In this document: piece by piece, positions 49,212 to 50,959 of the stretch
Layout: the number at the start of each line of letters is the position of its first letter
Position numbering within the stretch: position 1 is the first letter of the stretch
Assembly: GCF_006716645.1 (NCBI RefSeq)
Contig: NZ_VFPL01000001.1
Coordinates: 3,286,001-3,350,000, forward strand
DNA: 64,000 bases
Source: Arcticibacter tournemirensis
GTDB lineage: Bacteria; Bacteroidota; Bacteroidia; Sphingobacteriales; Sphingobacteriaceae
Reading direction: 5' to 3'
Program-made: the position numbers and the translations under genes
Notes under the pieces: generated by a model
What the model was told of the DNA's origin: nothing
Seen by the model: only the letters and a program-made list of their open reading frames with translations
Database searches by the model: none

Positions 49212-49242
49212 TTTGGACTTTTAGCATAATCCGTTATATTTG
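49212..49242 (+). promoter_or_regulatory. Promoter of the met operon
   Basis: TTTG (49212-49215), 19 nt, TATATTTG (49235-49242): a full match to the Bacteroidota housekeeping promoter. The transcript should start near 49246-49249, before the riboswitch. Confidence 0.85.
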
Positions 49243-49293
49243 CACCCATTGATAGCATTATCAATACTGTCAAACACCCCTTAAAAGGTTTTG

Positions 49294-49408
49294 ATTTATA
49301 AAGAAGCGGTGAGAGATCAGGCTCTGTGACCCGCTGACAACCTAACCGGAAGAGTTCCGGAAAAGGTGCCAAATCCTGGTCCCGTAAATAAACCGGGAGC
49401 ATATAAAT
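49294..49408 (+). promoter_or_regulatory. SAM-I-type riboswitch
   Basis: An aptamer that binds S-adenosylmethionine. P1 is ATTTATA (49294-49300) with TATAAAT (49402-49408). The core shows GAGAGATCAGGCTC, GACCCGCTGACAACC, the P3 hairpin CCGGAAGAGTTCCGG and the signature AAGGTGCCAAATCCTG, then a P4 hairpin with TCCCG/CGGGA. No terminator follows at once; instead a short reading frame begins 10 nt later, so SAM may control its translation or an element further down. Expected effect: high SAM switches the met genes off. Confidence 0.93.
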
Positions 49409-49418
49409 TGTTAAAACC

Positions 49419-49541
49419 ATGAGAAAAGATCAGATTCATTTTCGTCCTTCAGAAGGCATAACCACTATGCCAATCTCAGATTCATTGCGTTCCGAAAGCG
49501 CATTCCGAATGTCCCGTTTTATTTGTTGTTGCTGCTGTTAA
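49419..49541 (+). CDS. Poly-cysteine leader peptide (40 residues)
   Basis: A short frame starting MRKDQIHFRPSEG and ending FRMSRFICCCCC followed by TAA: five cysteine codons (TGT TGT TGC TGC TGT) are the last five. It lies between the SAM riboswitch and metY. By analogy with cysteine-responsive leader peptides described in mycobacteria, ribosomes should pause here when charged tRNA-Cys is scarce and so change expression of the genes downstream. A 7-bp hairpin starts 15 nt after the stop codon. CAGATTCATT occurs twice in the frame (49431, 49477), and its CAGAT could pair with one hairpin arm. Function is inference. Confidence 0.7.
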   Translation: MRKDQIHFRPSEGITTMPISDSLRSESAFRMSRFICCCCC

Positions 49542-49555
49542 TGCTTCAGCTTTCC

Positions 49556-49574
49556 CATCTGTGAAAAACAGATG
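49556..49574 (+). promoter_or_regulatory. Candidate attenuator hairpin
   Basis: CATCTGT (49556-49562) and ACAGATG (49568-49574) pair around GAAAA. It lies 15 nt after the poly-Cys stop codon and 81 bp before metY. There is no T-run, so if it controls expression it may do so by pairing or Rho access rather than intrinsic termination. Confidence 0.5.
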
Positions 49575-49654
49575 AGTTTGGTATACCCACTTAAATCCAG
49601 CGTATATCAGAACGGTTAAATTCAATCATTATATTCATTTATAAAAATATCACC

Positions 49655-50959
49655 ATGTCATTATCCAATCTTAAATTCGAAACACTACAGGTTCACGCAG
49701 GTCAGGAAGCAGATCCAACAACAGGTTCACGTGCTGTGCCTCTTTATCAAACCTCATCATATGTATTTACCAGTTCAGAACATGGCGCAAACCTCTTTGC
49801 CCTCAAAGAATTTGGAAATATCTATACCCGGTTGATGAACCCCACCACCGATGTGTTTGAAAAAAGGATAGCCGCACTTGAAGGCGGGGTTGCAGCTCTC
49901 GCTGTTTCATCCGGACAGGCAGCACAGTTCATTGCTATCAATAATATCCTCCAGGCCGGGGATAATTTTATATCCACATCATTCCTTTACGGAGGCACAT
50001 ACAATCAGTTTAAAGTCGCATTTAAACGCCTGGGAATTGAAACGCGGTTTGCTAAAGGAGATGATCCACAGAGCTTTGAAGCGTTGATCGACGATAAAAC
50101 AAAGGCGCTTTATCTTGAAACTATCGGAAACCCCGGATTTAATATCCCCGATTTCGAAAAGTTTGCCCAACTGGCACAGAAATATGATCTGCCGCTGATT
50201 GTCGACAACACTTTCGCTGCTGGAGGTTATTTATTCCGTCCTTTGGAGCATGGCGCACATATCGTTGTCGAATCAGCAACAAAATGGATTGGCGGCCACG
50301 GAACCAGCATTGGCGGTGTCATTGTCGACGGTGGCACCTACAACTGGGGCAATGGAAAGTATCCTCAGTTTACCGATCCTTCCGAAGGATATCACGGGCT
50401 GGTATTCAACGACGTATTCGGCATCGGCGGTCCCTTCGGCAATATTCAGTTCATTATCCGCGCCCGCGTAGAAGGACTGCGTGATTTTGGTCCGGCCCCC
50501 TCTCCTTTCAATTCCTTTCTTTTTATTCAGGGACTTGAAACGCTGTCGCTTCGTGTACAACGCCACGTAGATAACGCACTCGAACTTGCTAAATGGCTGG
50601 AACAACATCCGCAGGTGGAGAAAATAAACTATCCCGGACTAGAAAGCAGCATTTACCACGCTAATGCGAAGAAATACCTGCGCAACGGTTTTGGTTCCAT
50701 GCTCTCTTTCGAAATAAAAGGCGGAAAAGAAAAAGCAATTCAGTTTGTAAATAGTCTCGAACTTACCAGCCATGTGGCCAACGTGGGTGATGCTAAGACC
50801 CTCATCATTCAACCTGCTGCCACTACACACCAGCAGCTAAGCGATGAAGATCAGCTTGCAGCAGGAGTTACTCCTTCTCTGCTAAGAGTATCGGTAGGTA
50901 TTGAACATATAGACGACATTAAGGCCGATTTCGAACAGGCTTTCGAAAAGATAAAATAG
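49655..50959 (+). CDS. metY: O-acetylhomoserine sulfhydrylase
   Basis: Makes homocysteine from O-acetylhomoserine and sulfide, with PLP. The 434-residue protein has the longer MetY form of the fold: '[20 protein letters not shown]' at the start, PLP lysine K210 in '[16 protein letters not shown]', and the insert with '[11 protein letters not shown]'. It contains no cysteine at all, which fits an enzyme that must be made when cysteine or sulfur is short. It is the first structural gene after the SAM riboswitch and the poly-Cys leader. Confidence 0.95.

Follow-up and report, generated by a model that had tools for sequence, protein, structure and literature searches.

The window, i.e. the entire 64,000-nt stretch of Arcticibacter tournemirensis DNA under analysis, contains a metY–metX–hom operon behind a leader that combines a Bacteroidota-type promoter, a SAM-I aptamer and a short upstream open reading frame (uORF) ending in five cysteine codons (Table 1). 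The first-pass annotation had described a promoter and a SAM-I aptamer (49294–49408, extended by one nucleotide at either end in the Rfam match) followed by metY, and all of these were found; its 40-codon frame with five terminal Cys codons was verified by the ORF list and by reading the sequence, and such reading also located the 7-bp hairpin as described. The aptamer belongs to the SAM-I class (RF00162), with a covariance-model score above the curated cut-off, and is predicted to respond to SAM.

A scan of the window leader for sigma-70 promoters returned no match, as expected for Bacteroidota, and a TTG-N17–24-TANNTTTG pattern was present in 48 of the 61 uORF leaders among the listed metY loci (see below). 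Several relatives carry inverted repeats of differing sequence at the position that the stem-loop occupies behind the window promoter. A post-promoter stem-loop of changing sequence is possibly an RNA structure at the 5′ end or an operator. TGYTGYTGYTGYTRR occurs ten times in this genome, with an in-frame ATG ahead of the run at the metY site only. Elsewhere, two fragments of group II introns occur in the window, as does an RNase P RNA of bacterial class A (9739–10029, + strand, and 19808–20203, − strand).

Table 1. Positions of leader elements and genes at the metY locus, numbered from the first nucleotide of the window.
Feature	Position	Strand	Evidence and remarks
PLP enzyme, cystathionine gamma-synthase/lyase kind	47953–49074	+	NF005871 451 bits, below cut-off 513; PF01053; neighbour outside the leader
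Promoter, Bacteroidota-type, TTTG-N19-TATATTTG	49212–49242	+	TTTG 49212–49215, 19 nt, TATATTTG 49235–49242; read from sequence, start site deduced
Stem-loop ATTGATA-GCAT-TATCAAT	49248–49265	+	directly 3′ of the promoter; read from sequence
Extended P1, 5′ arm GGTTTTGATTTATA	49287–49300	+	can pair with 49402–49418
SAM-I riboswitch aptamer (RF00162)	49293–49409	+	Rfam 60.4 bits, E 1.6e-11, cut-off 44.4
Extended P1, 3′ arm TATAAATTGTTAAAACC	49402–49418	+	last base immediately precedes the uORF ATG
Leader uORF MRKDQIHFRPSEGITTMPISDSLRSESAFRMSRFICCCCC, 40 codons, CCCCC-stop end	49419–49541	+	ORF list; begins 9 nt past the aptamer
Five Cys codons, proposed regulatory codons	49524–49538	+	TAA stop 49539–49541; third base free in relatives
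7-bp hairpin CATCTGT-GAAAA-ACAGATG	49556–49574	+	starts at the 15th base past the uORF stop; lacks a U tract
Possible second stem TTTGGTATAC / GTATATCAGA	49577–49611	+	MFE prediction only
metY, O-acetylhomoserine sulfhydrylase	49655–50959	+	TIGR01326 679 bits, cut-off 495
metX, homoserine O-acetyltransferase	51015–52073	+	TIGR01392 344 bits, below curated cut-off 500
hom, homoserine dehydrogenase	52079–53260	+	NF004976 312 bits, cut-off 205

Distribution and conservation of the cysteine-tailed uORF

In all six genomes of the genus examined, aptamer, ATG-initiated ORF and metY followed one another in this order. The uORF tails read CCCC or CCCCC (in one case CCCCCYC), and the bodies diverge, e.g. 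MRKDQIHFRPSEG... vs. MNKERIQRCLCTG.... Used as a query, the window peptide matched two of the five other genus uORFs (E 1e-11 and 8e-9), with no match in two genus genomes and just a chance match elsewhere in a third (E 0.9). As the uORF-peptide search of 201 family genomes missed three of the five other genus uORFs and otherwise returned mostly unrelated Cys-rich stretches, relatives were located through the gene instead. The resulting metY set comprises the best 80 of at least 580 relatives from named genomes plus the six genus loci, 86 in all. SAM-I aptamers were placed by the core word GGTGCYAA at most 700 nt upstream of metY, present in 76 of the 86 listed loci, and a uORF was called when its ATG lay 20–110 nt past the core and at least three Cys occurred among its last 12 codons.

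Among the matches listed, 61 of the 76 SAM-I-core leaders harbored a Cys-tailed ATG uORF (6/6 from the genus and 55/70 of the listed core-word loci from named genomes), with a mean of 0.43 and a maximum of 2 such leaders in 30 rounds of dinucleotide shuffling. The uORF began at the first ATG in range in 40 of the 61 leaders, and an earlier ATG was present in the remaining 21. Loci named Pedobacter, Mucilaginibacter, Hymenobacter, Pontibacter, Rufibacter, Chryseolinea and Thermonema are included, as are MAGs named Haliscomenobacter, Lewinella and Flavobacteriales. Judged by sequence comparison, a predicted SAM-I aptamer followed by a tiny, cysteine-ended ORF before metY occurs in many Bacteroidota. 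The loci are related to one another, so that counts represent non-independent events and the p-values given here overstate independence.

By the above definition, 15 of the 76 leaders had no Cys tail, including all six Algoriphagus loci and Spirosoma. Three Sphingobacterium loci contain an ORF at the uORF place that ends in MRMRMHTHLPTC or MRMRMHMHLPTC, one more has an ORF ending in MRMR, and in L156 the CCCC stretch is internal to the ORF, not terminal. Met/Arg-rich uORFs (MRMRMH..., MRMR, SMRMRMPMSCFSYMCA) were observed where other leaders have the Cys uORF, in L116–L118 and L122 (Sphingobacterium) and in L253 (same class, other family), and perhaps represent a methionine-reading version.

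The core word agreed with Rfam in 12 checked loci (10 positive and 2 negative by both) and is incomplete, missing 10 of 57 Rfam matches even with an extra base left free, while L271 is an Rfam match lacking the word; some loci scored as having no core may therefore possess an aptamer. Four of the ten word-less loci were scanned with Rfam and gave no SAM-I match (L079, L080, L144, L150), and in two of the other six (L093, L099) the contig ends at most 120 nt from metY. Cys- or Cys/Met-rich uORFs before metY, with no Rfam SAM-I match, were noted in L144, L150 and L259; the Cys/Met uORFs of L144 and L150 indicate that gating by SAM-I is not obligatory. Two Hymenobacter loci (L120:2922–3075 and L129:2897–3038) have a Cys uORF ~1 kb 5′ of metY, with another open frame in between.

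Runs of three or more TGY codons near a stop were part of an open frame that has an ATG 40–66 nt past the core in 44 of 46 instances at the listed loci, and such ATGs number only about one per leader. The tails of the 61 uORFs comprise 195 TGT and 137 TGC codons, and when the Cys codons are aligned from the stop, 2583 of 5513 pairs differ in the third base. This free choice between TGT and TGC, together with the frame test, excludes conservation of the RNA sequence rather than of the peptide. In 54 of the 61 uORFs, the final 14 residues include Met. The first-pass annotation had suggested aligning relatives to see whether the Cys run persists while the remainder of the peptide drifts, and the comparison returned precisely this picture. 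Since run and frame are kept while the body drifts, a function of the ORF as a regulatory leader peptide, its translation being judged from frame conservation, is well supported. As a separate observation, Arg codons directly ahead of Met in the uORFs were CGA in 16 of 17 instances, compared with 12 of 80 for the remaining Arg codons, counts that are inflated by relatedness; in the window, the Arg-Met codon pair occupies 49506–49511.

To assess gene context, we considered 57 SAM-I matches in 26 family genomes (25 genera), all read with their downstream DNA, three of the loci being shortened by contig ends. Among the 19 SAM-I leaders with metY or metX as the first gene, 13 had a Cys uORF, two an ORF whose end contains CC, three an ORF with one Cys near the end and one none of these. 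In contrast, none of 24 metH, metE or metF leaders had a Cys uORF (Fisher 7e-7), four of these genes having been named by Pfam and the remainder by the resemblance of the protein start. Cys uORFs were present in four of the other 14 SAM-I loci, each ahead of a gene with TonB-receptor domains; in L197, an ORF ending in CC precedes a gene with a SusC-like start. A separate search contributed three further cases of SAM-I plus Cys uORF before SusC-type genes (L014, L016, L030). The A. tournemirensis genome itself encodes a second Cys-tailed uORF, MKNSPLLFDVAGQSTSIFNVYSSTSEIVSCCCRMCCA (C1 4154115–4154228, − strand; L159:6116–6229), in a locus arranged as SAM-I, a NifS/IscS-like gene, this uORF, then SusC and SusD. 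By comparison, none of the 30 best-scoring of 116 Plug-domain matches in this genome had a Cys uORF within 450 nt of the start, with starts assigned mechanically and at least one (L288) clearly wrong.

Proposed aptamer–uORF coupling and the region past the uORF stop

P1 of the aptamer extends outward toward the uORF ATG, and the distance between the 6-nt P1 core and the ATG was 8–12 nt in 46 of 49 leaders. Cognate P1 arms zipped over 4.59 bp vs. 3.74 bp when arms were swapped between species (p=0.0002), with energies of −7.2 and −5.8, respectively (p=0.0002), in 49 of the 61 uORF leaders, where the extension thus shows covariation. No such extension was seen in metH, metE and metF leaders (1.91 vs. 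2.08 bp, p=0.95; 22 of 24 loci, zip-length measure only); the energy measure, covering just six of these 24 loci, gave a weak positive (p=0.03). The 12 uORF leaders and two control leaders omitted are those whose arms were missed by the pattern. Predicted ligand-free accessibility over 54 leaders was 0.55 at the uORF start, slightly below the 0.62 of the metY start, and in the window the two starts were equal (0.67 and 0.66). Collectively, the P1 comparisons support, short of proof, the idea that SAM binding would close the uORF start through an extended P1.

The 80 nt past the uORF stop (from +5) were more structured than shuffled sequences, with a mean z of −1.56 and 21 of 61 leaders below −2, compared with −0.88 for the uORF itself and −0.63 for the last 80 nt. 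Eleven of the 14 Pedobacter leaders with a uORF have two adjacent hairpins here, the second with covariation; in three other groups, including the Mucilaginibacter-type and Hymenobacter leaders, the post-stop consensus was weak. In one group of eight leaders, the Cys run can form a UGUUGC/GCAACA stem of six pairs with downstream RNA, each pair being present in seven or eight of the eight with almost no covariation. Duplex energies between the Cys run and downstream RNA gave no general signal (mean z −0.55 vs. −0.69 for a control segment), so that a classical competing segment is predicted for this group alone.

The window hairpin at 49556–49574 does not look like a terminator, as it has no real U tract. 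A loose scan calls it terminator-like on account of five T in the eight bases TTTGGTAT (one found, 0.6 expected in shuffles), and the window leader (L073) fails a stricter scan. None of the 61 Cys-uORF leaders passed the strict scan, and a classical trp-type attenuator with a terminator was rejected on this ground. More distant members of the phylum have the same aptamer class before the same gene; these leaders differ in having a terminator (9 of 18 SAM-I/metY leaders without a uORF) and no Cys uORF. Among the near SAM-I/metY leaders without a uORF, just 1 of 15 passed, and presence of a uORF can therefore not by itself account for terminator absence. This branch seems to have lost the terminator, and in most leaders, though not all, the predicted uORF stands in its place. 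Occlusion of the metY start, likewise considered, is unsupported, as predicted openness was 0.62 there vs. 0.41 past the uORF stop (54 leaders). For the step that finally halts RNA polymerase in the leader or allows it through, our best guess is Rho.

Reading of the leader and its alternatives

We lean towards reading the metY leader as a nested two-input control element, in which SAM would gate the uORF and Cys-tRNA would control its completion. With SAM bound, the extended P1 would close as far as the start codon of the uORF, blocking its translation; the leader would consequently remain untranslated and the operon off, a state reached by Rho or RNA decay, there being no terminator hairpin. 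At low SAM, ribosomes would enter the uORF and, given ample charged tRNA-Cys, translate it to its end. A shortage of Cys-tRNA would make them stall on the Cys run, and their position would alter the structured stretch past the stop and raise metY-metX-hom output. We infer both the direction of this cysteine response and the final output step. Together, the SAM step and the cysteine step would leave homocysteine synthesis fully open only at low SAM combined with a shortage of cysteine. The cell thus probably gauges both sulfur amino acids ahead of homocysteine synthesis. This genome has a CysK/CysM match above the cut-off and a gene resembling cystathionine beta-synthase that scores slightly below its own cut-off, and the cystathionine gamma-synthase/lyase-like gene is adjacent to the leader; homocysteine made by MetY could thus feed cysteine as well as methionine, which would explain why the metY operon listens to both pools.

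The first-pass annotation had pictured the stacked elements as sensors acting in parallel; the evidence speaks more for nesting, with the extended P1 reaching the start codon of the uORF. Two independent sensors, with the aptamer acting by its own route (for example through transcript stability or access for Rho) and the uORF reading Cys-tRNA separately, would account for Cys/Met uORFs standing before metY without a SAM-I match (L144, L150) and for SAM-I without a uORF in Algoriphagus and metH leaders. The narrow ATG-aptamer distance, together with a P1 extension that reaches the uORF start in uORF leaders and is absent from metH, metE and metF leaders, argues against this arrangement, which we regard as rather unlikely. 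More improbable still is that the uORF serves as a ribosome entry site or Rho shield in a leader lacking Shine-Dalgarno signals, and that its Cys run works as a sensor (nascent-peptide, redox, sulfide or metal) in place of a reader of tRNA-Cys charging. Adjacent Cys residues could indeed be chemically reactive, and the tails also carry Met, with some Arg-Met pairs written CGA-AUG; known arrest peptides, however, need a fixed peptide motif, and here the positions and spacing of the Cys vary and no such motif is kept.

Conservation of the translated frame would also be expected of a functional Cys-rich small protein whose location in a leader is secondary. Yet the body varies even within the genus, to the extent that the peptide query recovered two of five other members, and a similar tail sits on unrelated bodies ahead of SusC-type genes, so that we give a small-protein role very little credence. 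Leaders of every kind tend to contain short ORFs, which would favour a chance TGY repeat next to a riboswitch, devoid of any role; against 61 of 76 leaders (among the matches listed) compared with at most two in 30 shuffle rounds, and 13/19 compared with 0/24 when split by gene, this explanation is scarcely credible.

The nested reading can be widened to a proposal for the branch as a whole, which we put forward tentatively and consider somewhat less probable than not: SAM-I would act, rather than directly on its gene, on whether a cysteine-counting leader peptide is translated, as a two-step AND gate within a single RNA that replaced the intrinsic terminator in the Sphingobacteriales/Cytophagales branch and was reused before SusC/SusD uptake operons, yielding a small SAM-plus-Cys regulon. 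The general lack of a terminator in near leaders without a uORF weighs somewhat against this proposal.

Relation to known systems and implications

Cys-run leader ORFs without clear terminators have been reported before cys operons of Actinobacteria (Seliverstov 2005, PMC1262725), and polycysteine leaderless uORFs were described by Canestrari 2020, as summarised in PMC9031893 and PMC13236596. The actinobacterial ORFs resemble the one studied here in being short, with Cys codons near the stop, in association with sulfur genes and in having no clear terminator (PMC1262725). According to these same accounts, they differ in standing alone (leaderless in Canestrari 2020) and in preceding cys genes, whereas the Bacteroidota ORFs belong to another phylum, follow SAM-I, start beside P1 and precede metY/metX and SusC-type genes. 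In the window, the ATG lies 177 nt past the –7 box and the promoter is upstream of the aptamer, which, with the start site deduced from the promoter, places the uORF outside the leaderless class. A part for Rho was weakly proposed for mycobacterial cys leaders (PMC1262725).

In Rhodobacterales, uORFC-8-2 precedes cysS and has tandem Cys codons, and attenuation was proposed (PMC8632094); as described in the excerpted text, it has two Cys codons, usually at positions 14–15, and a terminator stem with a U run, and a riboswitch is not mentioned there. For the ubiGmccBA operon of Clostridium acetobutylicum, control by an S-box, a Cys-specific T-box and an antisense RNA is described in PMC2940859. 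Here, too, one sulfur operon is equipped with elements for SAM and tRNA-Cys charging; in that account, the T-box, which is not fully functional, reads tRNA-Cys and antisense transcripts are the target of the S-box (PMC2940859), whereas the window has one sense leader with a uORF predicted to be translated. A SAM riboswitch acting on a start in a leader is also known from Sinorhizobium, where SAM-II controls metA translation at a distance; in the passages available (PMC9373788), this system belongs to another class and works by Shine-Dalgarno sequestration, and an amino-acid-sensing uORF was not noticed in them. Within Bacteroidota, leader-peptide attenuation was suggested for amino-acid operons of Flavobacterium psychrophilum (PMC9723704), and the candidate RNAs listed in PMC2864571 include Bacteroid-trp.

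Among the open-licence papers listed by the searches, none was seen to describe a Cys-run uORF behind a SAM riboswitch, in agreement with the earlier statement that no such Bacteroidota case had been described. SAM-I and Cys-run ORFs are known singly, and their fusion, with a helix ending at the ORF start codon, seems undescribed. Bacteroidota make little use of Shine-Dalgarno sites, and the arrangement offers a way in which riboswitches may act in such a phylum. It also suggests that, in the evolution of one riboswitch class, a uORF took over from the terminator as output, and two-metabolite logic within a single RNA could be tested simply, by changing single codons. SusC/SusD systems equipped with this pair of elements are predicted to have sulfur-related ligands.
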